Shown in pieces: positions 4,753-47,795 of a stretch of 64,000 nucleotides of DNA. Position 1 is the stretch's first letter. The number at the start of each line of letters is the position of its first letter. A program made the translations under genes and the position numbers. Source of the DNA: Odiellus spinosus (lineage: Eukaryota; Arthropoda; Arachnida; Opiliones; Phalangiidae); the NCBI GenBank assembly GCA_963920705.1, contig OY987238.1, positions 14,068,183 to 14,132,182 of the forward strand, written 5' to 3'. The notes under the pieces are model-generated. The model searched no databases. It was given only the letters and a program-made list of their open reading frames with translations, and was not told the origin of the DNA.

Positions 4753-7700
4753 ATGGGAAAGGGATACAACAATTACGTAAATATATAAATTTAGAGTTTC
4801 TCTTACGCGTGGTGTTAATGTTATAGAAAAATTATTATAGTTTACTTTTTAATTTTTCACAGATGTGTAAGAAACCTTTCCACCCTGGCTCAAAATCAAA
4901 CATTAAACGAGTAAGTATTTCATTGATAAATAAATTTAAACTGGTGTATTTTAACGTAGTACTTGAAATGTTATGTACTTTGATTTCAGGCATGGATGGC
5001 GGAACAACGTCTCGACAATGACAAAAAGAAGCAAGATGAACTTCGAGTTCAATACGAGAAGGAGCAAGAGCTTTATAATAACAAGTATATTAATGTCATA
5101 ATTTCAATTAATTTATCTTATTCAAATTTATACCAAAGTTTATCGTTACTGTTTAGGGCTTCGATAAGTAACGAAAGCAAAGACAAACTTGCGCTTAATT
5201 TCATGTACGAAGCGCCACCCGGTGCAAAAAGAGGTATGTAAAAAGCATTTCCTTCAAAATTTGGTTATGTTGAATAAAAATTACATTCCTATTTTCACGT
5301 TCATCTGAAATCAAATTAAAAGAACACCAGGTTAGTTAACTTAGAGGTGTAAAAGAAATAGTTGAATGTAGCTAACGTTTGTCTATTAACTAGAGAGAAG
5401 ATGATGAACCCGAGTACAAATTTGAGTGGCAAAGAAAATACAATGCTCCCAGAGAAGAGTAAAAAACTTTTCAGCGTACTTTCAGCGATGAGTTTTGAAT
5501 AACCGTAATTTCTTTTATACTTCTAGTTTTGCGAAGGATAACAAAGAAATTAGGGACCAACCATTTGGTATCCCAGTTCGAAATGTAAGATGTATAAAAT
5601 GTCATCAATGGGGTCATCTAAACACCGATAGGGAATGCCCCTTATTTAATCAAGCCAGTAAAAATGGAGCCTCATCGTGTATGTAATCGTTATTTTATTT
5701 TCTCTTTCGTTAAGTAAACAAAACTGTGCCATTAATGTCTCCCAATGCCTATCCCAATGTGATCTGACAACTTAATTTTTTTTTAAAGGCCCTTCTATTT
5801 AGGCCAAATTGTTTGGCCAAAATAGTCGCCATTGCTATTTTGGGCCCAAAAACTTCATTATCTCTTAAAATCAATGAATTATCGAGCAATTATAATTATA
5901 TACCTTTACAGATACGTGGAAAAATTTTCTCTTTTTTTAAATTTCAGCTTCAATTGATCCATTTGAATTAATGCGTCAGATGAGGGAAGATGGTTTGCAG
6001 TTGAAGAAGGACGTTATTGGTCATCAGTTTGCCGCCGAATGCGCCAATCAGGTAAAGAGTAATCTTTTGAAGCCTAACAAAGCTATCAATCGAGTAGATA
6101 AGCCTAACGAAGCTATCAATCGAGTTGCTAAGCCTAACGAAGCTATCAATCGAGTTGCTAAGCCTAACGAAGCTATCAATCGAGTTGCTAAGCCTAACGA
6201 AGCTATCAATCGAGTTGCTAAGCCTAACGAAGCTATCAATCGAGTTGCTAAGCCTAACGAAGCTATCAATCGAGTTGCTAAGCCTAACGAAGCTATCAAT
6301 CGAGTAGATAAGCCTAACGAAGCAATCAATCGAGTAGATAAGCCTAACGAAGCTATCAATCGAGTATCTAAGCCTAACGAAGCTATCAATCGAGTATCTA
6401 AGCCTAACGAAGCTATCAACTGATTAGCTAAGCCTAACGAAGCTATCAATCGAGTAGCTAAGCCTAACGAAGCTATCAATCGAGTAGCTAAGCCTAACGA
6501 AGCTATCAATCGAGTAGCGAAGCCTAACGAAGCTATCAACCGAGTAGCTAAACCTAACGAAGCTATAGCCCGAGATTCGAAAGCTAGCCACCCAAAATTT
6601 TCAAAATAAATGTATTTCCTCCACCCCACCCCCACTTAGCCCCCCTTAGAAAATCCTAGCAATGCCCCTGGATGCGTCTCACTAGATATTGATCTTTAAT
6701 AGCAAATGTTAAGCGATGGCGAAGAAGAGGATCCTGAAATGGAATTCCTGAAAACTCTTTCGACTAAACAGAAGAAAAAACTATTGAGGTATGAATGCGT
6801 TCATTTCCCAATAATGTCTAATCTTTCTTTATTTAATTATAATTAAATACACATTGAAAAATAATCTCTTTTATGATAATTTATTCTTATTTAACAGGAA
6901 ATTGAATAAATTGGCTGTGAAACAAAATGCGGAAACATCAGTGGGCGATGATGGAACGAAGAAAAAGAAAAGTAAAAGCAAAAAGAAGAAAGAGAGCAAG
7001 AAAAGGAAAAAAAAAAGTTCAGGTAAGATTTTATCTTTAACCTAAATATACTGAATCACCCGGATGAGGCGCGGATTTCCAAAATGGTGAGAGAAAGGGA
7101 TTTCATTTGGTCCATACAAGAATGACCCTTTATTAATTAAGACTTTTTGCGGCGTCTTAAATTGAAGGTCGCCATCTTAAACGAAAGATTGTTTTGTTCA
7201 AGGCAGTAGGTACTATTCATACTGTTAAGCCTAGTTCATACACAGACCTAAATGGGCTTCGGTTTCTATAACTGGTTATCAAACCAACTTGAGAAATCAG
7301 TTCGTGTTGGTTCGGGAAGCAATTTGCAGGTCAAGTCGCTTCGGTTCAATCTTCTTTGAAAATAACGAGGCGAGGAGACAAATTTGCTGATAAATCTTAA
7401 AATAACGCGAATAAAATTCTATTTTCTGTCAGAAATTATTAACCAACGAGTTGCAAACACGATTTACTAATTAGTTTGAGATAATTATTTAATAATTTTA
7501 AATTCTGGGCATTTTTTTAAAACGACGCTAAGCCTTGGCGTAGGTCGAACCGGGGCGAACGGCCGCGAACCTTCTTGTCAGCGTGTGAACCAGGGAAAAC
7601 GGAAAACGCTTCGTACTGGTTTTGGAAGCGATTTTGGAAGTATGAACGAGGCTTTAGGGTTAAAACTACTGTAGATAGGGTTTTGGCAACTATATAGTTC

Positions 7701-8148
7701 TTTTTCCGGGAACTACAGGCTTCTAGGGGAGTGAGATAGTCGCGCGACAGACCAGTAAGAAATATCACCTCGTTTCTTGGTGACAAAAATGGCGAATTGG
7801 GGGGTGGACCTAAGGGGAACGGGCAAAATGGTAGCGGCAAAAAGTCTAGTGCCGTAACTTTTCTCTATGATCTTCTTGGCATAAACAGATTGCGCCATTA
7901 GAAAGTAGACATTCAAAATAATAATAATTGACATTGTGGCAATCCTTCAAGCTAATTTTAGAATCTACCTTTGTTTCTCAGATTCTGAATGTAATAAAAA
8001 GAAGCGCAGATCTCATTCCGAGAAAGCCGCATCGAGCGAAGAAAGTTCGAGTGATTCCTCTAATTCATCGGACTCTAATTGCGGTAAAAATCGTAAGAGA
8101 AAAAGTGAGCAAAAATATCATAGCGGTAGTAAGAAAAGAAAGGATTGA
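4753..8148 (+). CDS. CIR1: CBF1/RBPJ-interacting corepressor CIR1
   Basis: Ten exons: 4753-4776, 4863-4910, 4990-5084, 5157-5233, 5398-5458, 5527-5678, 5948-6051, 6703-6788, 6898-7022, 7982-8148. All phases agree, giving 312 residues. The start MGKGYNNY followed by [15 protein letters not shown] matches the conserved CIR N-terminus. The Cir_N region continues with [17 protein letters not shown], and [12 protein letters not shown] is highly conserved. A CCHC zinc knuckle (C-x2-C-x4-H-x6-[17 protein letters not shown]) lies at residues 124-139. [20 protein letters not shown] precedes a Lys/Ser-rich tail resembling the RS-like tail of vertebrate CIR1. In vertebrates the protein bridges the Notch effector RBPJ to histone deacetylase complexes and also meets splicing factors in nuclear speckles. 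Intron 7 carries a 30-bp minisatellite that stays in frame with exon 7. AATAAA at 8411-8416 is a likely poly(A) signal. Confidence 0.94.
6070..6579 (+). repeat. 30-bp minisatellite, 17 units, in CIR1 intron 7
   Basis: Seventeen head-to-tail 30-bp units begin AAGCCTAACGAAGCTATCAA and end with variants of TCGAGTTGCT. Internal units are almost identical; variants (GTTGCT, GTAGAT, GTATCT, GTAGCT) form zones. The unit is a multiple of three, so it encodes a decapeptide K-P-N-E-A-I-N-R-V-(A/D/S) in frame with CIR1 exon 7, until a CGA to TGA change at 6421 stops it. Confidence 0.97.
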
Positions 8149-8499
8149 ATTCGGTTCATTTAAAAAAAGAAATATCTGTTTCTTTAGAGGAAGTTTTTAT
8201 TTTTTAAACTCTCGTAATCCTCCGAATATTTCGACGAATGTTTTCAAATTAATTAGAGTCAGCTCACGACTAACTGACCGAATTTAAAGCGATTGCGCAT
8301 TTGGTTTTACAAAAGTAGAGGCATTCTTAAAGAAACGTAAATTGTAAGGTTGTGAAAATTTATGCAAATGTTACGGCGTACTAATATTATGCAATAGTAA
8401 TTAAAAAACTAATAAAAAAAAAACTATGGGGTACTATTTGCAAAATATAAAAAAAAAAAACATCGAAAAAATCTTTGGTCAAGCGTAACAACAAAAAAA
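8149..8499 (+). other. CIR1 3' UTR and A-rich flank
   Basis: This segment follows the CIR1 stop codon. It becomes A-rich from about 8400 and includes AATAAA at 8411-8416. No other gene is visible before the repeats start. Confidence 0.5.
8411..8416 (+). promoter_or_regulatory. Candidate poly(A) signal of CIR1
   Basis: AATAAA lies about 263 bp past the CIR1 stop and just before the satellite region. It is the first good hexamer I see on this strand, but A-rich DNA makes chance matches easy. Confidence 0.4.
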
Positions 8500-8786
8500 T
8501 ATTCCAATGGGTACTTCTTGTAAAAAAATAAAAAAAAATTAAAAAAAAAATAAAAAACAAGGGGTACTCCTTGTAAAAAAAATCAAAAAAAAAAAAAATA
8601 AATAAATAATCAAAAATGTAAAAAAAAAAAAATAAATACACCCCCTGTTAAATAAATAATCAAAAATTTTACAAGGGGTACCCCTTGTAAAATAAAATAA
8701 ATACACCCCCTGTAAAATAAATAATCAAAAATTTTACAAGGGGTACCCAATCTCAATTTTCCCAATCTCAATTTTCCCAATCTCAA
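8500..8786. repeat. Palindromic edge of the minisatellite complex
   Basis: The stretch contains the perfect palindrome TTACAAGGGGTACCCCTTGTAA near 8667-8690, written here in two halves: TTACAAGGGGT and its complement. Related imperfect forms (GGGTACTTCTTGT, GGGGTACTCCTTGT) lie upstream. It also contains the array unit in minus orientation (ATACACCCCCTGT at about 8637 and 8701), before the array proper starts in plus orientation at 8787. Three copies of CCCAATCTCAATTTT-type sequence begin at about 8747. It looks like a fold-back junction or seed of the array. Confidence 0.7.
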
Positions 8787-11700
8787 GGGGGTGTATTTTT
8801 TACAGGGGGTGTATTTTTTACAGGGGGTGTATTTTTTACAGGGGGTGTATTTTTTACAGGGGGTGTTTTTTTTACAGGGGGTGTATTTTTTACAGGGGGT
8901 GTATTTTTTACAGGGGGTGTATTTTTTACAGGGGGTGTATTTTTTACAGGGGGTGTATTTTTTACAGGGGGTGTATTTTTTACAGGGGGTGTATTTTTTA
9001 CAGGGGGTGTATTTTTTACAGGGGGTGTATTTTTTACAGGGGGTGTATTTTTTACAGGGGGTGTATTTTTTACAGGGGGTGTATTTTTTACAGGGGGTGT
9101 ATTTTTTACAGGGGGTGTATTTTTTACAGGGGGTGTATTTTTTACAGGGGGTGTATTTTTTACAGGGGGTGTATTTTTTACAGGGGGTGTATTTTTTACA
9201 GGGGGTGTATTTTTTACAGGGGGTGTATTTTTTACAGGGGGTGTATTTTTTACAGGGGGTGTATTTTTTACAGGGGGTGTATTTTTTACAGGGGGTGTAT
9301 TTTTTACAGGGGGTGTATTTTTTACAGGGGGTGTATTTTTTACAGGGGGTGTATTTTTTACAGGGGGTGTATTTTTTACAGGGGGTGTATTTTTTACAGG
9401 GGGTGTATTTTTTACAGGGGGTGTATTTTTTACAGGGGGTGTATTTTTTACAGGGGGTGTATTTTTTACAGGGGGTGTATTTTTTACAGGGGGTGTATTT
9501 TTTACAGGGGGTGTATTTTTTACAGGGGGTGTATTTTTTACAGGGGGTGTATTTTTTACAGGGGGTGTATTTTTTACAGGGGGTGTATTTTTTACAGGGG
9601 GTGTATTTTTTACAGGGGGTGTATTTTTTACAGGGGGTGTATTTTTTACAGGGGGTGTATTTTTTACAGGGGGTGTATTTTTTACAGGGGGTGTATTTTT
9701 TACAGGGGGTGTATTTTTTACAGGGGGTGTATTTTTTACAGGGGGTGTATTTTTTACAGGGGGTGTATTTTTTACAGGGGGTGTATTTTTTACAGGGGGT
9801 GTATTTTTTACAGGGGGTGTATTTTTTACAGGGGGTGTATTTTTTACAGGGGGTGTATTTTTTACAGGGGGTGTATTTTTTACAGGGGGTGTATTTTTTA
9901 CAGGGGGTGTATTTTTTACAGGGGGTGTATTTTTTACAGGGGGTGTATTTTTTACAGGGGGTGTATTTTTTACAGGGGGTGTATTTTTTACAGGGGGTGT
10001 ATTTTCCCAATCTCAATTTTCCCAATCTCAAGGGGGTGTATTTTTTACAGGGGGTGTATTTTTTACAATGGGTGTATTTTTTACAGGGGGTGTATTTTTT
10101 ACAGGGGGTGTATTTTTTACAGGGGGTGTATTTTCACAGGGGGTGTATTTTTACAGGGGGTGTATTTTCCCAATCTCAATTTTCCCAATCTCAATTTTCC
10201 CAATCTCAATTTTCCCAATCTCAATTTTCGCAATCTCAATTTTACAGGGGGTGTATTTTTTACAGGGGGTGTATTTTTACAGGGGGTGTATTTTTACAGG
10301 GGTGTATTTTTACAGGGGTGTATTTTTACAGGGGGTGTATTTTTTACAGGGGGTGTATTTTTTACAGGGGGTGTATTTTTTACAGGGGGTGTATTTTTTA
10401 CAGGGGGTGTATTTTTTACAGGGGGTGTATTTTTTACAGGGGGTGTATTTTTTACAGGGGGTGTATTTTTACAGGGGGTGGATTTTTTACAGGGGGTGTA
10501 TTTTTTACAGGGGGTGTATTTTTTACAGGGGGTGGATTTTTTACAGGGGGTGTATTTTTTACAGGGGGTGTATTTTTTACAGGGGGTGTATTTTTTACAG
10601 GGGGTGTATTTTTTACAGGGGGTGTATTTTTTACAGGGGGTGTATTTTTTACAGGGGGTGTATTTTTTACAGGGGGTGTTTTTTTTACAGGGGGTGTATT
10701 TTTTACAGGGGGTGTATTTTTTACAGGGGGTGTATTTTTTACAGGGGGTGTATTTTTTACAGGGGGTGTATTTTTTACAGGGGGTGTATTTTTTACAGGG
10801 GGTGTATTTTTTACAGGGGGTGTATTTTTTACAGGGGGTGTATTTTTTACAGGGGGTGTATTTTTTACAGGGGGTGTATTTTTTACAGGGGGTGTATTTT
10901 TTACAGGGGGTGTATTTTTTACAGGGGGTGTATTTTCCCAATCTCAATTTTCCCAATCTCAAGGGGGTGTATTTTTTACAGGGGGTGTATTTTTTACAAT
11001 GGGTGTATTTTTTACAGGGGGTGTATTTTTTACAGGGGGTGTATTTTTTACAGGGGGTGTATTTTCACAGGGGGTGTATTTTTACAGGGGGTGTATTTTC
11101 CCAATCTCAATTTTCCCAATCTCAATTTTCCCAATCTCAATTTTCCCAATCTCAATTTTCGCAATCTCAATTTTACAGGGGGTGTATTTTTTACAGGGGG
11201 TGTATTTTTACAGGGGGTGTATTTTTACAGGGGTGTATTTTTACAGGGGTGTATTTTTACAGGGGGTGTATTTTTTACAGGGGGTGTATTTTTTACAGGG
11301 GGTGTATTTTTTACAGGGGGTGTATTTTTTACAGGGGGTGTATTTTTTACAGGGGGTGTATTTTTTACAGGGGGTGTATTTTTTACAGGGGGTGTATTTT
11401 TACAGGGGGTGGATTTTTTACAGGGGGTGTATTTTTTACAGGGGGTGTATTTTTTACAGGGGGTGTATTTTTTACAGGGGGTGTATTTTTTACAGGGGGT
11501 GTATTTTTTACAGGGGGTGTATTTTTTACAGGGGGTGTATTTTTTACAGGGGGTGTATTTTTTACAGGGGGTGTATTTTTTACAGGGGGTGTATTTTTTA
11601 CAGGGGGTGTTTTTTTTACAGGGGGTGTATTTTTTACAGGGGGTGTATTTTTTACAGGGGGTGTATTTTTTACAGGGGGTGTATTTTTTACAGGGGGTGT

Positions 11701-14700
11701 ATTTTTTACAGGGGGTGTATTTTTTACAGGGGGTGTATTTTTTACAGGGGGTGTATTTTTTACAGGGGGTGTATTTTTTACAGGGGGTGTATTTTTTACA
11801 GGGGGTGTATTTTTTACAGGGGGTGTATTTTTACAGGGGGTGTATTATTTACAGGGGGTGTATTTTTACAGGGGGTGTATTTTCCCAATCTCAATTTTCC
11901 CAATCTCAATTTTCCCAATCTCAATTTTCCCAATCTCAAGGGGGTGTATTTTTTACAGGGGGTGTATTTTTTACAGGGGGTGTATTTTTTACAATGGGTG
12001 TATTTTTTACATGGGGTGTATTTTTTACAGGGGGTGTATTTTTTACAGGGGGTGTATTTTCACAGGGGGTGTATTTTTACAGGGGGTGTATTTTTTACAG
12101 GGGGTGTATTTTTTACAGGGGGTGTATTTTTTGCAGGGGGTGTATTTTTACAGGGGGTGTATTTTTTACAGGGGTGTATTTTTTACAGGGGGTGTATTTT
12201 TTACAGGGGGTGTATTTTTACAGGGGGTGTATTTTCCCAATCTCAATTTTCCCAATCTCAATTTTCCCAATCTCAATTTTCTCAATCTCAATTTTCCCAA
12301 TCTCAATTTTCCCAATCTCAATTTTCCCAATCTCAATTTTCCCAATCTCAATTTTCCCAATCTCAAGGGGGTGTATTTTTTACAGGGGGTGTATTTTTTA
12401 CAGGGGGGTGTATTTTTTACAGGGGGGTGTATTTTTTACAGGGGGTGTATTTTTTACAGGGGGTGTATTTTTTACAGGGGGTGTATTTTTTACAGGGGGT
12501 GTATTTTTTACAGGGGGTGTATTTTTTACAAGGGGTGTATTTTTACAGGGGGTGTATTTTTTACAGGGGGTGTATTTTTTACAGGGGGTGTATTTTTTAC
12601 AGGGGGTGTATTTTTTACAGGGGGTGTATTTTTTACAGGGAGTGTATTTTTTACAGGGGGTGTATTTTTTACAGGGGGTGTATTTTTTACAGGGGGTGTA
12701 TTTTTTACAGGGGGTGTATTTTTTACAGGGGGTGTATTTTTTACAGGGGGTGTATTTTTTACAATGGGTGTATTTTTTACAGGGGGTGTATTTTTTACAG
12801 GGGGTGTATTTTTTACAGGGGGTGTATTTTTACAGGGGGTGTATTTTCCCAATCTCAATTTTCCCAATCTCAATTTTCCCAATCTCAATTTTCCCAATCT
12901 CAATTTTCCTAATCTCAATTTTCCCAATCTCAAGGGGGTGTATTTTTTACAGGGGGGTGTATTTTTTACAGGGGGGTGTATTTTTTACAGGGGGTGTATT
13001 TTTTACAGGGGGTGTATTTTTTACAGGGGGTGTATTTTTACAGGGGGTGTATTTTTTACAGGGGGTGTATTTTTTACAGGGGGTGTATTTTTTACAGGGG
13101 GTGTATTTTTACAGGGGGTGTATTTTTACAGGGGGTGTATTTTTTACAGGGGGTGTATTTTTTACAGGGGGTATATTTTTACAGGGGGTGTATTTTTACA
13201 GGGGGTGTATTTTCCCAATCTCAATTTTCCCAATCTCAATTTTCCCAATCTCAATTTTCCCAATCTCAATTTTCCCAATCTCAATTTTCCCAATCTCAAT
13301 TTTCCCAATCTCAATTTTCCCAATCTCAATTTTCCCATTCTCAATTTTCCCAATCTCAATTTTCCCAATCTCAATTTTCCCAATCTCAATTTTACAGGGG
13401 GTGTATTTTTTACAGGGGGTGTATTTTTTACAGGGGGTGTATTTTTACAGGGGTGTATTTTTACAGGGGTGTATTTTTACAGGGGGTGTATTTTTTACAG
13501 GGGGTGTATTTTTTACAGGGGGTGTATTTTTTACAGGGGGTGTATTTTTTACAGGGGGTGTATTTTTTACAGGGGGTGTATTTTTTACAGGGGGTGTATT
13601 TTTTACAGGGGGTGTATTTTTTACAGGGGGTGTATTTTTACAGGGGGTGTATTTTTTACAGGGGGTGTATTTTTTACAGGGGGTGTATTTTTTACAGGGG
13701 GTGTATTTTTTACAGGGGGTGTATTTTTTACAGGGGGTGTATTTTTTACAGGGGGTGTATTTTTTACAGGGGGTGTATTTTTTACAGGGGGTGTATTTTT
13801 TACAGGGGGTGTATTTTTTACAGGGGGTGTTTTTTTTACAGGGGGTGTATTTTTTACAGGGGGTGTATTTTTTACAGGGGGTGTATTTTTTACAGGGGGT
13901 GTATTTTTTACAGGGGGTGTATTTTTTACAGGGGGTGTATTTTTTACAGGGGGTGTATTTTCCCAATCTCAATTTTCCCAATCTCAATTTTCCCAATCTC
14001 AATTTTCCCAATCTCAATTTTCCCAATCTCAATTTTCCCAATCTCAAGGGGGTGTATTTTTTACAGGGGGTGTATTTTTTACAATGGGTGTATTTTTTAC
14101 AGGGGGTGTATTTTTTACAGGGGGTGTATTTTTTACAGGGGGTGTATTTTCACAGGGGGTGTATTTTTACAGGGGGTGTATTTTTTACAGGGGGTGTATT
14201 TTTTACAGGGGGTGTATTTTTTGCAGGGGGTGTATTTTTACAGGGGGTGTATTTTTTACAGGGGTGTATTTTTTACAGGGGGTGTATTTTTTACAGGGGG
14301 TGTATTTTTACAGGGGGTGTATTTTTACAGGGGGTGTATTTTCCCAATCTCAATTTTCCCAATCTCAATTTTCCCAATCTCAATTTTCTCAATCTCAATT
14401 TTCCCAATCTCAATTTTCCCAATCTCAATTTTCCCAATCTCAATTTTCCCAATCTCAATTTTCCCAATCTCAATTTTCCCAATCTCAAGGGGGTGTATTT
14501 TTTACAGGGGGTGTATTTTTTACAGGGGGGGTGTATTTTTTACAGGGGGGTGTATTTTTTACAGGGGGTGTATTTTTTACAGGGGGTGTATTTTTTACAG
14601 GGGGTGTATTTTTTACAGGGGGTGTATTTTTTACAGGGGGTGTATTTTTTACAAGGGGTGTATTTTTACAGGGGGTGTATTTTTTACAGGGGGTGTATTT

Positions 14701-17128
14701 TTTACAGGGGGTGTATTTTTTACAGGGGGTGTATTTTTTACAGGGGGTGTATTTTTTACAGGGAGTGTATTTTTTACAGGGGGTGTATTTTTTACAGGGG
14801 GTGTATTTTTTACAGGGGGTGTATTTTTTACAGGGGGTGTATTTTTTACAGGGGGTGTATTTTTTACAGGGGGTGTATTTTTACAGGGGGTGTATTTTTT
14901 ACAGGGGGTGTATTTTTTACAGGGGGTGTATTTTTTACAGGGGGTGTATTTTTACAGGGGGTGTATTTTCCCAATCTCAATTTTCCCAATCTCAATTTTC
15001 CCAATCTCAATTTTCCCAATCTCAATTTTCCTAATCTCAATTTTCCCAATCTCAAGGGGGTGTATTTTTTACAGGGGGTGTATTTTTTACAGGGGGTGTA
15101 TTTTTTACAGGGGGTGTATTTTTACAGGGGGTGTATTTTTTACAGGGGGTGTATTTTTTACAGGGGGTGTATTTTTTACAGGGGGTGTATTTTTACAGGG
15201 GGTGTATTTTTACAGGGGGTGTATTTTTTACAGGGGGTGTATTTTTTACAGGGGGTGTATTTTTACAGGGGGTGTATTTTTACAGGGGGTGTATTTTCCC
15301 AATCTCAATTTTCCCAATCTCAATTTTCCCAATCTCAATTTTCCCAATCTCAATTTTCCCAATCTCAATTTTCCCAATCTCAATTTTCCCAATCTCAATT
15401 TTCCCAATCTCAATTTTCCCATTCTCAATTTTCCCAATCTCAATTTTCCCAATCTCAATTTTCCCAATCTCAATTTTCCCAATCTCAATTTTACAGGGGG
15501 TGTATTTTTTACAGGGGGTGTATTTTTTACAGGGGGTGTATTTTTACAGGGGTGTATTTTTACAGGGGTGTATTTTTACAGGGGTGTATTTTTTACAGGG
15601 GGTGTATTTTTTACAGGGGGTGTATTTTTTACAGGGGGTGTATTTTTTACAAGGGGTGTATTTTTTACAGGGGGTGCATTTTTTACAGGGGGTGTATTTT
15701 TTACAGGGGGTGTATTTTTTACAGGGGGTGTATTTTTTACAGGGAGTGTATTTTTTACAGGGGTGTACTTTTTACAGGGGGTGTATTTTTTACAGGGGGT
15801 GTATTTTTTACAGGGGGTGCATTTTTTACAGGGGGTGTATTTTTTACAGGGGGTGTATTTTTTACAGGGGGTGTATTTTTTACAGGGAGTGTATTTTTTA
15901 CAGGGGTGTACTTTTTACAGGGGGTGTATTTTTTACAGGGGGTGTATTTTTTACAGGGGGTGCATTTTTTACAGGGGGTGTATTTTTTACAGGGGGTGTA
16001 TTTTTTACAGGGGGTGTATTTTTACAGGGAGTGTATTTTTTACAGGGGTGTACTTTTTACAGGGGGTGTATTTTTTACAGGGGGTGTATTTTTTACAGGG
16101 GGTGTATTTTTTACAGGGGGTGTATTTTTTACAGGGGGTGTATTTTTACAGGGGGTGTATTTTTACAGGGGGTGTATTTTTTACAGGGGGTGTATTTTTA
16201 CAGGGGGTGTATTTTTACAGGGGGTGTATTTTTACAGGGGGTGTATTTTTACAGGGGGTGTATTTTCCCAATCTCAATTTTCCCAATCTCAATTTTCCCA
16301 ATCTCAATTTTCCCAATCTCAATTTTCCCAATCTCAATTTTCCCAATCTCAATTTTCCCAATCTCAATTTTCCCAATCTCAATTTTCCCAATCTCAATTT
16401 TCCCAATCTCAATTTTCCCAATCTCAATTTTCCCAATCTCAATTTTCCCAATCTCAATTTTCCCAATCTCAATTTTCCCAATCTCAATTTTCCCAATCTC
16501 AATTTTCCCAATCTCAATTTTCCCAATCTCAATTTTCCCAATCTCAATTTTCCCAATCTCAATTTTACAGGGGGTGTATTTTTACAGGGGGTGTATTTTT
16601 TAAGGGGGTGTATTTTTTACAGGGGGTGTATTTTTTACAGGGGGTGTATTTTTACAGGGGATTTATTTTTACAGGGGGTGTATTTTTTACAGGGGGTGTA
16701 TTTTTTACAGGGGGGTGTATTTTTACAGGGGGTGTATTTTTACAGGGGGTGCATTTTTACAGGGGGTGTATTTTTACAGGGGGTGTATTTTTACAGGGGG
16801 TGTATTTTTACAGGGGGTGTATTTTTACAGGGGGTGTATTTTTACAGGGGGTGTATTTTTTACAGGGGGTGTATTTTTTACAGGGGGTGTATTTTTTACA
16901 GGGGGTGTATTTTTTACAGGGGGTGTTTTTTTACAGGGGGTGTATTTTTACAGGGGGTGTATTTTTTCAGGGGGTGTATTTTTACAGGGGGTGTATTTTT
17001 TACAGGGGGTGTATTTTTTACAGGGGGTGTATTTTTTACAGGGGGTGTATTTTTATAGGGGGTGTATTTTTACTGGGGGTGGATTTTTTACAGGGGGTGT
17101 ATTTTTACAGGGGGTGTATTTTTTTATT
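8787..17128 (+). repeat. Left arm of minisatellite complex: 18-bp unit, + orientation
   Basis: The unit is GGGGGTGTATTTTTTACA (18 bp), with a common 17-bp form lacking one T. From 8787 to about 10004 it is almost uninterrupted (about 67 units, very few changes). Further on, runs of 2 to 20 copies of a 15-bp unit, CCCAATCTCAATTTT, alternate with runs of the 18-bp unit. Rare variants (ACAATGGG, GTGTTTTTTT, GGGGTGGATTTT) recur at fixed places and define larger blocks. No host gene lies inside; the long open frames are by-products of a repeat without stops. Confidence 0.98.
10031..15055 (+). repeat. Higher-order repeat blocks in the left arm
   Basis: The junction from a 15-bp run back into 18-bp units (CTCAAGGGGGTG) recurs at about 10031, 10962, 11940, 12366, 12932, 14047, 14488 and 15055. 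The first two are 931 bp apart with the same internal order: ACAATGGG variant, TTTTCACAGG variant, five 15-bp copies, two short ACAGGGGTG units, then a long 18-bp run. Later blocks are shuffled or shortened. The large blocks have been duplicated as a whole. Confidence 0.85.
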
Positions 17129-19550
17129 TTAACATTGCCCATGCTAAATTCTCATAGGAATAACGCTACCATAGGTTTAACATTACCCATGCTAAATTCT
17201 CATAGGAATAACGCTACCATTGGATTAACATTACCCATGCTAAATTCTCATAGGAATAACGCTACCATTGGATTAACATTACCCATGCTAAAATCTCATA
17301 GGAATAACGCTATCATAGGTTTAACATTACCAATGCTAAATTCTCATAGGAATAACGCTACCATTGGATTAACATTACCCATGCTAAATTCTCATAGGAA
17401 TAACTCTATCATACGTTTAACATTGCCCATGCTAAATTCTCATAGGAATAACGCTACCATAGGATTAACATTACCCATGCTAAAATCTCATAGGAATAAC
17501 GCTACCATAGGTTTAACATTACCCATGCTAAATTCTCATAGGAATAACGCTACCATAGGATTAACATTACCCATGCTAAAATCTCATAGGAATAACGCTA
17601 CCATAGGTTTAACATTGCCCATGCTAAATTCTCATAGGAATAACGCTACCATTGGATTAACATTACCCATGCTAAAATCTCATAGGAATAACGCTATCAT
17701 AGGTTTAACATTACCAATGCTAAATTCTCATAGGAATAACGCTACCATTGGATTAACATTACCCATGCTAAATTCTCATAGGAATAACTCTATCATACGT
17801 TTAACATTGCCCATGCTAAATTCTCATAGGAATAACGCTACCATAGGATTAACATTACCCATGCTAAAATCTCATAGGAATAACGCTACCATAGGTTTAA
17901 CATTACCCATGCTAAATTCTCATAGGAATAACGCTACCATTGGATTAACATTACCCATGCTAAATTCTCATAGGAATAACGCTACCATTGGATTAACATT
18001 ACCCATGCTAAAATCTCATAGGAATAACGCTATCATAGGTTTAACATTACCAATGCTAAATTCTCATAGGAATAACGCTACCATTGGATTAACATTACCC
18101 ATGCTAAATTCTCATAGGAATAACTCTATCATACGTTTAACATTGCCCATGCTAAATTCTCATAGGAATAACGCTACCATAGGATTAACATTACCCATGC
18201 TAAAATCTCATAGGAATAACGCTACCATAGGTTTAACATTACCCATGCTAAATTCTCATAGGAATAACGCTACCATAGGATTAACATTACCCATGCTAAA
18301 ATCTCATAGGAATAACGCTACCATAGGTTTAACATTGCCCATGCTAAATTCTCATAGGAATAACGCTACCATTGGATTAACATTACCCATGCTAAAATCT
18401 CATAGGAATAACGCTATCATAGGTTTAACATTACCAATGCTAAATTCTCATAGGAATAACGCTACCATTGGATTAACATTACCCATGCTAAATTCTCATA
18501 GGAATAACTCTATCATACGTTTAACATTGCCCATGCTAAATTCTCATAGGAATAACGCTACCATAGGATTAACATTACCCATGCTAAAATCTCATAGGAA
18601 TAACGCTACCATAGGTTTAACATTACCCATGCTAAATTCTCATAGGAATAACGCTACCATTGGATTAACATTACCCATGCTAAATTCTCATAGGAATAAC
18701 GCTACCTTTGGATTAACATTACCCATGCTAAAATCTCATAGGAATAACGATACCATTGGATTAACATTACCCATGTTAAATTCTCATAGGAATAACGCTA
18801 TCATACGTTTAACATTGCCCATGCTAAATTCTCATAGGAATAACGCTACCATAGGATTAACATTACCCATGCTAAAATCTCATAGGAATAACGCTATCAT
18901 AGGTTTAACATTACCAATGCTAAATTCTCATAGGAATAACGCTACCATTGGATTAACATTACCCATGCTAAATTCTCATAGGAATAACTCTATCATACGT
19001 TTAACATTGCCCATGCTAAATTCTCATAGGAATAACGCTACCATAGGATTAACATTACCCATGCTAAAATCTCATAGGAATAACGCTACCATAGGTTTAA
19101 CATTACCCATGCTAAATTCTCATAGGAATAACGCTACCATTGGATTAACATTACCCATGCTAAATTCTCATAGGAATAACGCTACCATTGGATTAACATT
19201 ACCCATGCTAAAATCTCATAGGAATAACGCTATCATAGGTTTAACATTACCAATGCTAAATTCTCATAGGAATAACGCTACCATTGGATTAACATTACCC
19301 ATGCTAAATTCTCATAGGAATAACTCTATCATACGTTTAACATTGCCCATGCTAAATTCTCATAGGAATAACGCTACCATAGGATTAACATTACCCATGC
19401 TAAAATCTCATAGGAATAACGCTACCATAGGTTTAACATTACCCATGCTAAATTCTCATAGGAATAACGCTATCATAGGATTAACATTACCCATGCTAAA
19501 TTCTCATTGGAATAACGCTATCATAGGGTTAACATTACCATGTTAACTTC
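17129..19550 (+). repeat. 48-bp tandem array, about 50 units
   Basis: Each unit starts TTAACATTACCCATGCTAAA and continues TTCTCATAGGAATAACGCTA then CCATAGGA or CCATTGGA. About 50 units sit directly against the 18-bp array at 17128. A marked variant (AACTCTATCATACG) recurs at 17401, 17785, 18121, 18505, 18985 and 19321. Several of these are 720 bp apart, so a 15-unit higher-order repeat has been copied. The unit is divisible by three and free of stops in one frame. Confidence 0.97.
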
Positions 19551-19734
19551 TCATAAGAAAAATTCTACCATAGGAGGTTTTTGTAGCTGATATAACTCCC
19601 AAAGTTATTAAGGGGCCAATCATATGCCTAGTTGAATCCTTGGTCCAATCATATGTTTGGTCGGAATTGTGGACAGTCGGAATTGCGAACAGTCGGAATT
19701 ACGGCCATAATAAATAATTCTTAATTATTAAAAT
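19551..19734. other. Non-repetitive spacer between the arrays
   Basis: About 180 bp separate the 48-bp array from the right arm. It contains two near-copies of CCAATCATATG (19616, 19646) and three of GTCGGAATTG-type sequence (about 19660-19697), but no long array. It is the only single-copy-looking DNA between the oppositely oriented arms. Confidence 0.6.
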
Positions 19735-22700
19735 ACACCCCCTGTAAAAATACACCCCCTGTAAAAATACACCCCCTGTAAAAATACACCCCATGTAAAA
19801 ATACACCCCCTGTAAAAATACACCCCCTGTAAAAATACACCCCCTGTAAAAATACACCCTATGTAAAAATACACCCCCTGTAAAAATACACCCCCTGTAA
19901 AAATACACCCCCTGTAAAAAATACACCCCCTGTAAAAAATACACCCCCTGTAAAAAATACACCCCCTGTAAAAAATACACCCCCTGTAAAAAATACACCC
20001 CCTGTAAAATTGAGATTGGGAAAATTGAGATTGGGAAAATTGAGATTGGGAAAATACACCCCCTGTAAAAATACTCCCCCTGTAAAAATACTCCCCCTGT
20101 AAAAATACACCCCCTGTAAAAATACACCCCCTGTAAAAATACACCCCCTGTAAAAATACACCCCTGTAAAAATACACCCCTTGTAAAAATACACCCCATG
20201 TAAAAATACACCCCATGTAAAAATACACCCCCTGTAAAAATACACCCCCTGTAAAAATACACCCCCTGTAAAAATACACCCCCTGTAAAAATACACCCCC
20301 TGTAAAAAATACACCCCCTGTAAAAATACACCCCTTGTAAAAATACACCCCCTGTAAAAATACACCCCCTGTAAAAATACACCCCCTGTAAAAATACACC
20401 CCCTGTAAAAATACACCCCCTGTAAAAAATACACCCCCTGTAAAAAATACACCCCCTGTAAAAATACACCCCCTGTAAAAAATACACCTCCTGTAAAAAA
20501 TACACCCCCTGTAAAAAATACACCCCCTGTAAAAAATACACCCCCTGTAAAAATACACCCCCTGTAAAATTGAGATTGGGAAAATTGAGATTGGGAAAAT
20601 TGAGATTGGGAAAATTGAGATTGGGAAAATACACCCCCTGTAAAAATACTCCCCCTGTAAAAATACACCCCCTGTAAAAATACACCCCCTGTAAAAATAC
20701 ACCCCCTGTAAAAAATACACCCCCTGTAAAAAATACACCCCCTGTAAAAAATACACCCCCTGTAAAAAATACACCCCCTGTAAAAAATACACCCCCTGTA
20801 AAAAATACACCCCCTGTAAAAAATACACCCCCTGTAAAAAATACACCCCCTGTAAAAAATACACCCCCTGTAAAAATACACCCCCTGTAAAATTGAGATT
20901 GGGAAAATTGAGATTAGGAAAATTGAGATTGGGAAAATTGAGATTGGGAAAATACACCCCCTGTAAAAATACTCCCCCTGTAAAAATACACCCCCTGTAA
21001 AAAATACACCCCCTGTAAAAAATACACCCCCTGTAAAAATACACCCCCTGTAAAAAATACACCCCTGTAAAAAATACACCCCCTGTAAAAAATACACCCC
21101 CTGTAAAAAATACACCCCCTGTAAAATTGAGATTGGGAAAATTGAGATTGGGAAAATTGAGATTGGGAAAATTGAGATTGGGAAAATTGAGATTGGGAAA
21201 ATTGAGATTGGGAAAATTGAGATTGGGAAAATTGAGATTGGGAAAATACACCCCCTGTAAAAAATACACCCCCTGTAAAAATACACCCCCTGTAAAAAAT
21301 ACACCCCCTGTAAAAAATACACCCCCTGTAAAAAATACACCCCCTGTAAAAAATACACCCCCTGTAAAAATACACCCCCTGTAAAAAAATACACCCCCTG
21401 TAAAAAATACACCCCCTGTAAAAAATACACCCCCTGTAAAAAATACACCCCCTGTAAAAAATACACCCCCTGAAAAAAATACACCCCCTGTAAAAAATAC
21501 ACCCCATGTAAAAAAATACACCCCCTGTAAAATTGAGATTGGGAAAATTGAGATTGGGAAAATTGAGATTGGGAAAATTGAGATTGGGAAAATTGAGATT
21601 GGGAAAATTGAGATTGGGAAAATTGAGATTGGGAAAATTGAGATTGGAAAAATACACCCCCTGTAAAAAATACACCCTCTGTAAAAAATACACCCCCTGT
21701 AAAAAATACACCCCCTGTAAAAAATACACCCCCTGTAAAAATACACCCCCTGTAAAATTGAGATTGGGAAAATTGAGATTGGGAAAATTGAGATTGGGAA
21801 AATTGAGATTGGGAAAATTGTGATTGGGAAAATTGAGATTGGGAAAATTGAGATTGGGAAAATTGAGATTGGGAAAATACACCCCCTGTAAAAAATACAC
21901 CCCCTGTAAAAAATACACCCCCTGTAAAAAATACACCCCCTGTAAAAAATACACCCCCTGAAAAAAATACACCCCCTGTAAAAAATACACCCCCTGTAAA
22001 AAATAAACCCCCTGTAAAAAATACACCCCCTGTAAAAATACACCCCCTGTAAAATTGAGATTGGGAAAATTGAGATTGGGAAAATACACCCCCTGTAAAA
22101 ATACTCCCCCTGTAAAAATACACCCCCTGTAAGAATACACCCCCAGTAAAAATACACCCCCTGTAAAAATACACCCCCTGTAAAAATACACCCCCTGTAA
22201 AAAATACACCCCCTGTAAAAATACACCCCTTGTAAAAATACACCCCCTGTAAAAATACACCCCCTGTAAAAATACACCCCCTGTAAAAATACACCCCCTG
22301 TAAAAATACACCCCCTGTAAAAAATACACCCCCTGTAAAAAATACACCCCCTGTAAAAAATACACCCCCTGTAAAAAATACACCCCCTGTAAAAAATACA
22401 CCCCCTGTAAAAAATACACCCCCTGTAAAAAATACCCCCTCTGTAAAAATACACCCCCTGTAAAATTGAGATTGGGAAAATTGAGATTGGGAAAATTGAG
22501 ATTGGGAAAATTGAGATTGGGAAAATACACCCCCTGTAAAAATACTCCCCCTGTAAAAATACACCCCCTGTAAAAATACACCCCCTGTAAAAAATACACC
22601 CCCTGTAAAAAATACACCCCCTGTAAAAAATACACCTCCTGTAAAAAATACACCCCCTGTAAAAAATACACCCCTTGTAAAAATACACCCCCTGTAAAAA

Positions 22701-25448
22701 TACACCCCCTGTAAAAAATACACCCCCTGTAAAAAATACACCCCCTGTAAAAAATACACCCCCTGAAAAAAATACACCCCCTGTAAAAAATACACCCCAT
22801 GTAAAAAAATACACCCCCTGTAAAATTGAGATTGGGAAAATTGAGATTGGGAAAATTGAGATTGGGAAAATTGAGATTGGGAAAATTGAGATTGGGAAAA
22901 TTGAGATTGGGAAAATTGAGATTGGGAAAATTGAGATTGGAAAAATACACCCCCTGTAAAAAATACACCCTCTGTAAAAAATACACCCCCTGTAAAAAAT
23001 ACACCCCCTGTAAAAAATACACCCCCTGTAAAAATACACCCCCTGTAAAATTGAGATTGGGAAAATTGAGATTGGGAAAATTGAGATTGGGAAAATTGAG
23101 ATTGGGAAAATTGTGATTGGGAAAATTGAGATTGGGAAAATTGAGATTGGGAAAATTGAGATTGGGAAAATACACCCCCTGTAAAAAATACACCCCCTGT
23201 AAAAAATACACCCCCTGTAAAAAATACACCCCCTGTAAAAAATACACCCCCTGAAAAAAATACACCCCCTGTAAAAAATACACCCCCTGTAAAAAATAAA
23301 CCCCCTGTAAAAAATACACCCCCTGTAAAAATACACCCCCTGTAAAATTGAGATTGGGAAAATTGAGATTGGGAAAATACACCCCCTGTAAAAATACTCC
23401 CCCTGTAAAAATACACCCCCTGTAAGAATACACCCCCAGTAAAAATACACCCCCTGTAAAAATACACCCCCTGTAAAAATACACCCCCTGTAAAAAATAC
23501 ACCCCCTGTAAAAATACACCCCTTGTAAAAATACACCCCCTGTAAAAATACACCCCCTGTAAAAATACACCCCCTGTAAAAATACACCCCCTGTAAAAAT
23601 ACACCCCCTGTAAAAAATACACCCCCTGTAAAAAATACACCCCCTGTAAAAAATACACCCCCTGTAAAAAATACACCCCCTGTAAAAAATACACCCCCTG
23701 TAAAAAATACACCCCCTGTAAAAAATACCCCCTCTGTAAAAATACACCCCCTGTAAAATTGAGATTGGGAAAATTGAGATTGGGAAAATTGAGATTGGGA
23801 AAATTGAGATTGGGAAAATTGAGATTGGGAAAATACACCCCCTGTAAAAATACTCCCCCTGTAAAAATACACCCCCTGTAAAAATACACCCCCTGTAAAA
23901 AATACACCCCCTGTAAAAAATACACCCCCTGTAAAAAATACACCTCCTGTAAAAAATACACCCCCTGTAAAAAATACACCCCTTGTAAAAATACACCCCC
24001 TGTAAAAATACACCCCCTGTAAAAAATACACCCCCTGTAAAAAATACACCCCCTGTAAAAAATACACCCCCTGTAAAAAATACACCCTCTGTAAAAAATA
24101 CACCCCCTGTAAAAATACACCCCCTGTAAAAAATACACCCCCTGTAAAAAATACACTCCCTGTAAAAAATACACCCCCTGTAAAAAGTACACCCCCTGTA
24201 AAAAATACACCCCCTGTAAAAAATACACCCCCTGTAAAAAATACACCCCCTGTAAAAATACACCCCCTGTAAAAATACACCCCCTGTAAAAAATACACCC
24301 CCTGTAAAAAATACACCCCCTGTAAAAAATACACCCCCTGTAAAAAATACACCCCCTGTAAAAAATACACCCCCTGTAAAAAATACACCCCCTGTAAAAA
24401 ATACACCCCCTGTAAAAATACGCCCCCTGTAAAAATACACCCCCTGTAAAAAATACACCCCCTGTAAAAAATACACCCCCTGTAAAAAATACACCCCCTG
24501 TAAAAAATACACCCCCTGTAAAAATACACCCCCTGTAAAATTGAGATTGGGAAAATTGAGATTGGGAAAATTGAGATTGGGAAAATTGAGATTGGGAAAA
24601 TTGAGATTGGGAAAATACACCCCCTGTAAAAAATACACCCCCTGTAAAAAATACACCCCCTGTAAAAAATACACCCCCTGTAAAAAATACACCCCCTGTA
24701 AAAAATACACCCCCTGTAAAAAATACACCCCCTGTAAAAAATACACCCCCTGTAAAAAATACACCCCCTGTAAAAAATACACCCCTGTAAAAAGTACACC
24801 CCCTGTAAAAAATACACCCCCTGTAAAAAATACACCCCCTGTAAAAAATACACCCCCTGTAAAAAATACACCCCCTGTAAAAATACACCCCCTGTAAAAA
24901 TACACCCCCTGTAAAAAATACACCCCCTGTAAAAAATACACCCCCTGTAAAAAATACACCCCCTGTAAAAAATACACCCCCTGTAAAAAATACACCCCCT
25001 GTAAAAAATACACCCCCTGTAAAAAATACACCCCCTGTAAAAAATACACCCCCTGTAAAAAATACACCCCCTGTAAAAAATACACCCCCTGTAAAAAATA
25101 CACCCCCTGTAAAAAATACACCCCCTGTAAAAAATACACCCCCTGTAAAAAATACACCCCCTGTAAAAAAATACACCCCCTGTAAAAAAATACACCCCCT
25201 GTAAAAAATACACCCCCTGTAAAAAATACACCCCCTGTAAAATTGAGATTGGGAAAATTGAGATTGGGAAAATTGAGATTGGGAAAATTGAGATTGGGAA
25301 AATACACCCCCTGTAAAAATACTCCCCCTGTAAAAATACACCCCCTGTAAAAAATACACCCCCTGTAAAATTGAGATTGGGAAAATTGAGATTGGGAAAA
25401 TAATAAATACAGCCCCTGTAAAAAAATAATAAATACACCCCCTGTAAA
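19735..25448 (-). repeat. Right arm of minisatellite complex: 18-bp unit, - orientation
   Basis: Read on the minus strand this is the left-arm unit GGGGGTGTATTTTTTACA with 17-bp forms, mixed with runs of 2 to 8 copies of the 15-bp CCCAATCTCAATTTT unit. The proportion of 17-bp units is high near 19735-20420. The arm lacks the long homogeneous run of the left arm and its blocks are ordered differently, so it is not a simple mirror copy. Confidence 0.97.
21399..24000 (-). repeat. 1293-bp tandem duplication inside the right arm
   Basis: Rare variants recur with a constant 1293-bp shift: CCTGAAAAAAAT at 21470 and 22763, and AAGAATACACCCCCAG at 22131 and 23424. The CACCTCCTG variant is shifted by 1308 bp, explained by one extra 15-bp unit in the second copy (five instead of four). 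The start of the block appears a third time just after 24000. Boundaries are accurate to roughly 20 bp. Confidence 0.85.
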
Positions 25449-27187
25449 AAACACGCCTTGAAAATAAAAACACGCCTTGAAAATAAAAACACGCCTTGAA
25501 AATAAAAACACGCCTTGAAAATAAAAACACGCCTTGAAAATAAAAACACGCCTTGAAAATAAAAACACGCCTTGAAAATAAAAACACGCCTTGAAAATAA
25601 AAACACGCCTTGAAAATAAAAACACGCCTTGAAAATAAATACACGCCTTGAAAATAAAAACACGCCTTGAAAATAAAAACACGCCTTGAAAATAAAAACA
25701 CGCCTTGAAAATAAAAACACGCCTTGAAATTAAAAACACGCCTTGAAAATAAAAACACGCCTTGAAATTAAAAACACGCCTTGAAATTAAAAACACGCCT
25801 TGAAATTAAAAACACGCCTTGAAATTAAAAACACGCCTTGAAATTAAAAACACGCCTTGAAATTAAAAACACGCCTTGAAATTAAAAACACGCCTTGAAA
25901 TTAAAAACACGCCTTGAAAATAAAAACACGCCTTGAAAATAAAAACACGCCTTGAAAATAAAAACACGCCTTGAAAATAAAAACACGCCTTGAAAATAAA
26001 AACACGCCTTGAAAATAAAAACACGCCTTGAAAATAAAAACACGCCTTGAAAATAAAAACACGCCTTGAAAATAAAAACACGCCTTGAAAATAAAAACAC
26101 GCCTTGAAAATAAAAACACGCCTTGAAAATAAAAACACGCCTTGAAAATAAAAACACGCCTTGAAAATAAAAACACGCCTTGAAAATAAAAACACGCCTT
26201 GAAAATAAAAACACGCCTTGAAAATAAAAACACGCCTTGAAAATAAATACACGCCTTGAAAATAAAAACACGCCTTGAAAATAAAAACACGCCTTGAAAA
26301 TAAAAACACGCCTTGAAAATAAAAACACGCCTTGAAATTAAAAACACGCCTTGAAAATAAAAACACGCCTTGAAATTAAAAACACGCCTTGAAATTAAAA
26401 ACACGCCTTGAAATTAAAAACACGCCTTGAAATTAAAAACACGCCTTGAAATTAAAAACACGCCTTGAAATTAAAAACACGCCTTGAAATTAAAAACACG
26501 CCTTGAAATTAAAAACACGCCTTGAAATTAAAAACACGCCTTGAAATTAAAAACACGCCTTGAAAATAAAAACACGCCTTGAAAATAAAAACACGCCTTG
26601 AAAATAAAAACACGCCTTGAAAATAAAAACACGCCTTGAAAATAAAAACACGCCTTGAAAATAAAAACACGCCTTGAAAATAAAAACACGCCTTGAAAAT
26701 AAAAACACGCCTTGAAAATAAAAACACGCCTTGAAAATAAAAACACGCCTTGAAAATAAAAACACGCCTTGAAAATAAAAACACGCCTTGAAAATAAAAA
26801 CACGCCTTGAAAATAAAAACACGCCTTGAAAATAAAAACACGCCTTGAAAATAAAAACACGCCTTGAAAATAAAAACACGCCTTGAAAATAAAAACACGC
26901 CTTGAAAATAAAAACACGCCTTGAAAATAAAAACACGCCTTGAAAATAAAAACACGCCTTGAAAATAAAAACACGCCTTGAAAATAAAAACACGCCTTGA
27001 AAATAAAAACACGCCTTGAAAATAAAAACACGCCTTGAAAATAAAAACACGCCTTGAAATTAAAAACACGCCTTGAAATTAAAAACACGCCTTGAAATTA
27101 AAAACACGCCTTGAAATTAAAAACACGCCTTGAAATTAAAAACACGCCTTGAAAATAAAACACGCCTTGAAAATAAAACACGCCTTG
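25449..27187 (-). repeat. 19-bp tandem array, about 91 units
   Basis: On the plus strand the unit is AAAACACGCCTTGAAAATA (19 bp), with a second form GAAATTA. The two forms are grouped in zones. A rare variant AATAAATACACG occurs near 25635 and 26245 and the pattern repeats at 608 bp (32 units), so a higher-order copy exists. The array directly abuts the right arm of the 18-bp complex. On the minus strand it reads TTTTCAAGGCGTGTTTTTA, which aligns with the 18-bp unit. Confidence 0.97.
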
Positions 27188-30063: not shown

Positions 30064-30502
30064 AAGAAATTTCAGACACATTTCACAACACACGCGAGAT
30101 GTGTACTCTGATAAGGATTTGGGTCCGAAATTTTAATTTTTTCTCATAGGGTGTATCTTTAAACCACGCGTGTTTCAACGCGTGTACCTACAGTGGAGAG
30201 TGAAAGTGGTTGGTTTGGGGGTGGTCTAGAAATAACGGGATGCGACCGACCTACTGACCTCGTTTACTAGCAAAAAAAAAAAGGAAATGTGGAAAGTGAG
30301 AGTCAAAGTTAAAATTGATTGACTGATCAGTATTCGCGGTCCGTTCAAGTCCTCAAAAAGGGAAAATAAAATGTCCAATAAAAAAAACCCAGCTTTAACT
30401 ACCCTTTATCTAGCTTATTTAAAAAATATTTTATAGGCTGACTCAATGTCTTAATCGATATTGAGAAAACAAATTGAACAATAATGACAATACATATATC
30501 TT
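29933..30502 (-). promoter_or_regulatory. Upstream region of the protease gene
   Basis: This lies between the protease ATG and the 26-bp array. It includes a 30-base T-run (30030-30060), a TATA-like site at 30019-30024 and a GTGTTTCAACGCGTGT segment near 30170. No coding exon is seen. Confidence 0.45.
30019..30024 (-). promoter_or_regulatory. Candidate TATA box of the protease gene
   Basis: On the minus strand the sequence reads AATATAAATT, containing TATAAA, about 90 bp before the ATG. The spacing suits a short 5' UTR. In AT-rich DNA this may be chance. Confidence 0.35.
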
Positions 30503-32136
30503 TATGGTCAAGACAAGACAGATCTCTTTATGGTCAAGACAAGACAGATCTCTTTATGGTCAAGACAAGACAGATCTCTTTATGGTCAAGACAAGACAGA
30601 TCTCTTTATGGTCAAGACAAGACAGATCTCTTTATGGTCAAGACAAGACAGATCTCTTTATGGTCAAGACAAGACAGATCTCTTTAAGGTCAAGACAAGA
30701 CAGATCTCTTTAAGGTCAAGACAAGACAGATCTCTTTAAGGTCAAGACAAGACAGATCTCTTTAAGGTCAAGACAAGACAGATCTCTTTAAGGTCAAGAC
30801 AAGACAGATCTCTTTAAGGTCAAGACAAGACAGATCTCTTTAAGGTCAAGACAAGACAGATCTCTTTAAGGTCAAGACAAGACAGATCTCTTTAAGGTCA
30901 AGACAAGACAGATCTCTTTAAGGTCAAGACAAGACAGATCTCTTTAAGGTCAAGACAAGACAGATCTCTTTAAGGTCAAGACAAGACAGATCTCTTTAAG
31001 GTCAAGACAAGACAGATCTCTTTAAGGTCAAGACAAGACAGATCTCTTTAAGGTCAAGACAAGACAGATCTCTTTAAGGTCAAGACAAGACAGATCTCTT
31101 TAAGGTCAAGACAAGACAGATCTCTTTAAGGTCAAGACAAGACATGTCTCTTTAAGGTCAAGACAAGACATGTCTCTTTAAGGTCAAGACAAGACATGTC
31201 TCTTTAAGGTCAAGACAAGACATGTCTCTTTAAGGTCAAGACAAGACATGTCTCTTTAAGGTCAAGACAAGACATGTCTCTTTAAGGTCAAGACAAGACA
31301 TGTCTCTTTAAGGTCAAGACAAGACATATCTCTTTAAGGTCAAGACAAGACATATCTCTTTAAGGTCAAGACAAGACATATCTCTTTAAGGTCAAGACAA
31401 GACATATCTCTTTAAGGTCAAGACAAGACATATCTCTTTAAGGTCAAGACAAGACATATCTCTTTAAGGTCAAGACAAGACATATCTCTTTAAGGTCAAG
31501 ACAAGACATATCTCTTTAAGGTCAAGACAAGACATATCTCTTTAAGGTCAAGACAAGACATATCTCTTTAAGGTCAAGACAAGACATATCTCTTTAAGGT
31601 CAAGACAAGACATATCTCTTTAAGGTCAAGACAAGACATATCTCTTTAAGGTCAAGACAAGACATATCTCTTTAAGGTCAAGACAAGACATATCTCTTTA
31701 AGGTCAAGACAAGACATATCTCTTTAAGGTCAAGACAAGACATATCTCTTTAAGGCAACACCAAGACAGACATATCTCTTTAAGGCAACACCAAGACAGA
31801 CATATCTCTTTAAGGCAACACCAAGACCGACATATCTCTTTAAGGCAACACCAAGACAGACATATCTCTTTAAGGCAACACCAAGACCGACATGTCTCTT
31901 TAAGGCAACACCAAACCGACATGTCTCTTTAAGGCAACACCAAGACCGACATGTCTCTTTAAGGCAACACCAAACCGACATGTCTCTTTAAGGCAACACC
32001 AAGACCGACATGTCTCTTTAAGGCAACACCAAGACCGACATGTCTCTTTAAGGCAACACCAAGACCGACATGTCTCTTTAAGGCAACACCAAGACCGACA
32101 TGTCTCTTTAAGGCAACACCAAGACATATCTCTTTA
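30503..32136 (+). repeat. Zoned 26-bp to 30-bp tandem array, about 60 units
   Basis: About 48 units of 26 bp (AAGGTCAAGACAAGACA then GATCTCTTT) are followed by about 12 units of 28-30 bp (AAGGCAACACCAAGACC then GACATGTCTCTTT). Variants are sorted into zones along the array: TATGG with CAGATCT first, TAAGG with CAGATCT, CATGTCT from about 31141, CATATCT from about 31326, and the 30-bp form from about 31755. Each zone is nearly uniform inside, the usual result of unequal crossing-over. It lies upstream of the protease gene. Confidence 0.97.

Positions 32137-41258: not shown

Positions 41259-47795
<6,537 letters not shown>

Follow-up and report, generated by a model that had tools for sequence, protein, structure and literature searches.

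Opposed minisatellite arms in Odiellus spinosus: a foldback-like layout that may have grown from a local palindrome

Foldback (FB) transposons carry long terminal inverted repeats (TIRs) that contain tandem repeats, and here we describe a minisatellite complex of the harvestman Odiellus spinosus that resembles them in architecture. The complex lies in a stretch of 64,000 nucleotides of contig OY987238.1 (positions 14,068,183–14,132,182, forward strand), which we call the window and which contains no N. Tetris of Drosophila virilis, listed among the foldback-derived satellites (PMC9659126), is described as having a variable middle without apparent coding capacity, target duplications of 8–10 bp, and TIRs that contain ~220-bp tandem repeats and reach 1735 bp (PMC4079207). 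In the account of Tm1 of root-knot nematodes, composite TIRs are built on a ~14-bp motif and the target duplications are mostly 9 bp, with 45 of 53 complete elements at 8–10 bp (PMC3169594). Galileo, of the P superfamily in Drosophila, is reported to hold ~210-bp repeats in two or three copies within TIRs of up to ~1.26 kb; its family includes a transposase, and the repeat number differs between the two TIRs of one copy, which its authors describe as independent TIR dynamism (PMC3573991). As these descriptions go, FB, Galileo, Tetris and Tm1 share the layout found here, so the remark in the first-pass annotation that no described element is built this way was too strong.

Two further systems bear on the comparison. 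Large inverted duplications can be seeded by short inverted repeats, either when a broken end folds back on itself (PMC3907307) or, in the model named ODIRA, when strands switch at a replication fork (PMC10766186). What is reported there for human and yeast concerns gene-sized segments, whereas the locus here consists of minisatellite arms that have since diverged. Minisatellites consist of tandem units of ~10–60 bp, a range that includes the units of the arms and centre, and ordinary minisatellites and satellites with higher-order repeats show unit indels, block duplications and private variants. The complex shares these features and differs in having two strictly opposite arms around a third array.

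Arrays were delimited with Tandem Repeats Finder. The left arm (8786–17124, + strand) comprises 489 units of AGGGGGTGTATTTTTTAC (18/17 bp) and CCCAATCTCAATTTT (15 bp), and was detected as an 18-bp array of 479 copies with 91% match. The right arm (19730–25447, − strand) holds the same units in opposite orientation, 337 in number, with the 18-bp array itself running in reverse orientation from 19730 to 25242 (321 copies); runs of the 15-bp unit are nested within both arms. The core motif of the 18-bp unit, GGGGTGT/ACACCCC, occurs 369/0 times in the left arm, 0/238 times in the right arm and 0/0 times in the 2605-bp centre, and the 15-bp motif gives plus/minus counts of 92/0 on the left and 0/72 on the right. 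An exact fit to one of seven prototypes was found for 708 of the 826 units. These counts bear out the earlier proposal that identical units run forward on the left and backward on the right, and that the G-rich and C-rich strands swap at the centre. Both arms finish outwardly in 15-bp units, the first CCCAATCTCAATTTT units at 8746–8785 (+) forming the outermost end of the left arm.

Within this shared material the arms have separate histories. The longest uniform run, of 62 identical 18-mers, is on the left, as had been noted; the right arm has no run longer than 14. The right arm contains a block duplication at offset 1293 (21403–23819, − strand) with 1124 bp identical, which continues beyond a one-unit (15-bp) indel; this duplication is real, but it is not a peculiarity of the right arm, as had been supposed, since the left arm has block duplications of its own, one of which is identical over 785 bp at offset 931. 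We found 54 unit variants, of which 12 are common to both arms and 42 occur in one arm only; 18 of the latter are singletons and thus private by necessity. Among the 17 variants that have four or more copies, eight are private to one arm, compared to a mean of 0.93 and a maximum of 4 in 2000 shuffles of the arm labels, a control that treats units as independent although private variants spread for the most part by block copying. They turn up repeatedly within their own arm, in one to four contexts, which shows that this copying was confined to that arm; AGGGGGAGTATTTTTAC, for instance, has nine copies from 0.02 to 0.94 of the length of the right arm and none in the left. Comparison of the unit variants and unit order of both arms detected no exchange between them, which is expected if homogenisation proceeds by unequal exchange, as this requires the same orientation.

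The joints between unit types appear to be older than these differences. The 18-to-15 joint AGGGGGTGTATTTT is found at 13/13 places in the left arm and 12/15 in the right, where the other three rows are 15-bp-type units starting with T. The 15-to-18 joint ending in ATTTTAC is found at 15/15 places in the right arm and 5/13 in the left (two of these five with one base change), and the remaining 8/13 on the left have a form seen only there. The shared joint types point to a common ancestor of both arms, and since units and joints are held in common, the 18/15-bp composite would be older than the arm split.

The flanks extend the complex. Its arms and centre lie where they had first been described, but 8787–25448 is not the full extent, because the 65-bp unit of the left flank and the 19-bp array of the right flank are relatives of the 18-bp unit; with these related repeats counted, the complex spans ~8410 to 27187. 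The left flank begins in A-rich DNA with degenerate outer copies of a palindromic motif (8410–8623; ~53-nt repeats at 8410, 8490 and 8543, 66–75% identity), followed by 1.9 copies of the 65-bp tandem unit (8624–8748), each a C-rich half-unit and then a G-rich half-unit. The right flank is formed by the 19-bp array AAAAACACGCCTTGAAAAT (25447–27187, − strand; 92 copies, 1.7 kb), a diverged relative of the 18-bp unit. The 65-bp unit aligns to the 18-bp unit with a local score of 39 (reached by 0/200 shuffles), the 19-bp unit to the 18-bp unit with 23 (1/200), and the 65-bp to the 19-bp unit with 28 (0/200). No similarity to the 18-bp unit was found for the 15-, 48-, 26- and 30-bp units of the window. 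At the outer end of the right arm, the outermost C-rich units (25398–25447, − strand) carry a ATAAATACA spacer that is present in the left flank in the same orientation: ATAAATACA[CG] occurs at 8632, 8697, 25403 and 25429, all on the + strand, and at two places in the 19-bp array, and is absent from the rest of the arms. We read the flank repeats as an older series inside which the arms grew.

The 65-bp unit contains a perfect 28-bp palindrome (8666–8693, 100% complementary), ATTTTACAAGGGGTACCCCTTGTAAAAT, whose halves are oriented like the two arms, with the left half G-rich and the right half C-rich. A second palindrome copy is cut down to 18 of 28 bases: four bases beyond its centre it gives way to the opening 15-bp unit of the left arm. 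This junction, at 8746, is abrupt and has an overlap of CCC. The region 8624–8760 is predicted to fold as a hairpin (z −4.3), and none of 200 shuffles folds equally well. The palindrome, with its second copy cut by the left arm, is a candidate for the short inverted repeat that a fold-back or ODIRA duplication would have at a junction.

On balance, we think it likely that the locus is a local non-coding minisatellite complex in which a palindrome seeded fold-back duplication of a short composite array, and that the arms grew separately afterwards. An older series of ~53–65-bp units would have carried the palindrome, with a version of the later 18-bp unit in each half, G-rich (+) on the left and C-rich (−) on the right. 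At an inverted repeat of that kind, replication by fold-back or template switching would then have left a short composite array of 18/17-bp and 15-bp units facing both ways about a centre. Each arm would have grown independently by slippage and block duplication, to give the private variants, private higher-order blocks and unequal arm lengths that are observed, and the 48-bp array would be a separate expansion in the centre. We infer that a seeding event took place, where it falls in time with respect to the 48-bp array, and that orientation is the reason for the lack of exchange. The likeness to fold-back and ODIRA events lies in large inverted copies seeded by short inverted repeats (PMC3907307, PMC10766186). 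By default, we regard the growth of the repeats as selectively neutral.

Several observations weigh against this origin. No intermediate was seen, and its first two steps are drawn from a single locus. Nor does it account for where the 15-bp and 48-bp units, which have no similarity to the 18-bp unit, came from. The right flank scores higher against arm sequence (65–71) than it does against the 65-bp unit of the left flank (59), which leaves one motif to support the continuity of the flanks. There are also some hints of a common unit order. The best alignment of unit strings between the arms scores 23.8, over eight units, of which seven are plain 15-bp units and one is a joint. This exceeds the reversed order (18.3) and eight unit shuffles (12.3–15.9), though comparing an arm with its own reversed order yields 67.6 for the left and 24.6 for the right. 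There are 620 exact non-trivial inverted matches of at least 60 bp, compared to 400 when the unit order is reversed, and the longest measure 235 and 213, respectively. The longest good ungapped inverted pair, 15752–16181 with 23846–24275, is 430 nt long and 95% complementary; it is composed of 18/17-bp units in register, and the reversed-order control scores equally. The best ungapped inverted DNA match between the arms scores 323, compared to 328 with the unit order reversed and 137–217 in six unit shuffles. A common unit order between the arms is thus not shown, and a weak trace of one is possible. Conserved palindromic arms, the reading that these comparisons address, are unsupported, with a unit alignment of only eight units and an ungapped match of 323 against 328 reversed.

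A bolder form of the fold-back origin, which we hold tentatively and as considerably less secure, is a self-amplifying fold-back minisatellite with no need for a transposase, in which the palindrome flips a short repeat cassette and the opposite orientation then divides the locus into two homogenisation domains, 2.6 kb apart, with no exchange between them. If it is true, the locus would be a natural test that homogenisation depends on orientation, through unequal exchange or slippage, and not on gene conversion. The locus also suggests a route by which foldback-like inverted repeats could arise from a local palindrome without transposition.

The resemblance to FB transposons raises another explanation, which we consider unlikely: that the complex is a non-autonomous foldback-type DNA transposon whose arms are TIRs of 5.7–8.3 kb and whose 48-bp array is the variable middle domain. 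Long inverted repeats with tandem repeats inside are indeed found here, as in Tetris, Tm1 and Galileo; the unequal repeat number between the two repeats of one copy matches what is described for Galileo, the variable non-coding middle matches Tetris, and both arms finish outwardly in 15-bp units. However, the published TIRs reach 1.7 kb in Tetris and ~1.26 kb in Galileo, against 5.7–8.3 kb for the arms here. Tetris and Tm1 mostly have target duplications of 8–10 bp, but here none rises above chance: at the inner edges the longest direct repeat is 5 bp (6 bp with A/T-only words), which all 290 of 290 control pairs match, and at the outer edges it is 8 bp (pair 8393/27235), which 126 of 290 control pairs match. 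No transposase was found among the 20 frames of the window scanned with Pfam. There is no second copy in the window either, where ACA[AG]GG[GC]GT and ACCCC[CT]TGTA have no occurrences outside the complex and the looser ACA[AG]GGGG has four, all inside an unrelated dispersed repeat. In contrast to Tetris and Tm1, the arms have no clearly shared unit order. The layout looks like that of foldback transposons, but the complex is far larger and lacks the usual marks of transposition, and we do not assign it as a foldback member.

Less probable still is an inversion that had one of its breakpoints within a long single array and flipped part of it, so that opposite arms were obtained with no duplication at all. 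This would account for the private variants and the absence of a shared order, and the abrupt left junction also fits. A flip of the right-hand part implies that the left inner end and the right outer end were once adjacent, but the unit-length composition pairs inner with inner and outer with outer. From outside to centre, by thirds, the share of 16/17-bp units among the 18-bp-type units rises from 0.10 through 0.15 to 0.37 in the left arm and from 0.22 through 0.41 to 0.52 in the right. The rank correlation of this polarity is −0.32 on the left and −0.31 on the right (rho), matched by 1/376 and 6/247 circular shifts, respectively, counting the unshifted order. The mirrored polarity fits a mirror-like origin better than it fits the simple flipping of one array's right-hand portion; had a separate left array been flipped in place, this objection would not apply.

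An assembly or library artefact, either a fold-back chimera or mis-joined repeats, is very improbable: long tandem repeats are difficult to assemble and the case rests on assembled sequence, but the arms differ in private variants (eight of the 17 with at least four copies in one arm only) and in unit and block order, the block order being what the first-pass annotation had set against a simple fold-back; there is also a 154-bp non-array spacer on the inner side of the right arm, and the window has no N.

Opposite arms with the same units and private variants offer a direct test of the mode of satellite homogenisation, the alternatives being orientation-dependent exchange with slippage and orientation-blind gene conversion. 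A transcript across the complex could also fold. For 300-nt pieces from both arms, the predicted RNA duplex has −547 kcal/mol for the outer and −489 for the inner pieces, compared to −119 kcal/mol for a single shuffled piece, which makes the large stem suggested earlier physically plausible. If the complex is transcribed across, an unusually long RNA hairpin would be formed in the convergent 3′ region of two genes.

The G-quadruplex potential of the arms is modest. A G-quadruplex array is a weak reading: the left arm has no canonical sites with loops of up to 7 nt and 94 sites with loops of up to 15 nt, and the mean G4Hunter score is 0.79 in the left arm and −0.74 in the right. The arms also contain very long open frames, up to 2354 amino acids. 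We rejected a protein-coding meaning for these, because both unit lengths, 18 and 15 bp, are divisible by three and several frames stay open simultaneously.

The centre is occupied by the 48-bp array (17129–19575, + strand, 51 copies), which is unrelated to the arm units, as first stated, with no similarity to the 18-bp unit. It is open in one of six frames over 17132–19546, where LTLPMLNSHRNNATIG is repeated. Changes per codon position number 24/25/82, an excess at third positions that rests on only eight strongly varying sites, four of them varying through silent third-position changes (by eye); a coding meaning for the array is not shown. The spacer between this array and the right arm (19576–19729) holds a 16-bp repeat of 2.6 copies.

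The complex is a ~19-kb stretch of short repeats in intergenic space, with one gene on each side. On the left is a CIR-like gene on the + strand, whose exon scores slightly below the curated cut-off (Cir_N, E 0.00023, 21.8 bits against 22.6). At its apparent 3′ end a Lys/Ser-rich frame stops at 8145, and we take this frame (7909–8145) to belong to the gene. The right neighbour is the last exon of a protease gene on the − strand (27516–27701). The space between them is therefore convergent. Trypsin-type exons (Pfam Trypsin, 2.4e-12, 4.2e-06 and 4.9e-13) and T-box exons (Pfam T-box, 2.2e-26 and 1.1e-14) were found in the window, Rfam gave no matches at gathering scores, and no tRNAs were found. 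Scans for related sequence gave no exact matches in viral and prokaryotic collections, which has little bearing on a eukaryote. Literature searches with four unit sequences as strings returned five papers with one or two of them, each string occurring once, and no paper title on repeats among those listed, and searches for inverted satellite layouts gave no match under strict queries that demanded all or most terms jointly.

Other repeats are present nearby, and no fewer than seven distinct tandem arrays can be counted at the locus within 26 kb. In the region of the CIR-like gene, a 30-bp tandem array (6070–6566, 16.6 copies) reads as 10-residue peptide repeats and has an in-frame stop at 6421–6423. 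Two more minisatellites lie at 30486–32182, one of 26-bp units (50 copies) and one of 30-bp units at 31676–32182. A dispersed repeat of at least 300 bp occurs at 33708, 38588, 60101 and 61121 (+) and at 59143–59434 (−), some pairs of copies being 94–99% alike over ~190–300 bp and others as low as 62%; it is this repeat that contains the four outside occurrences of ACA[AG]GGGG. An inverted pair of 162 nt (56588–56964), 85% complementary with a gap of 53 nt, has relatives at 48.0 and 54.9 kb, and a perfect (CT)46 microsatellite is located at 45380–45472.

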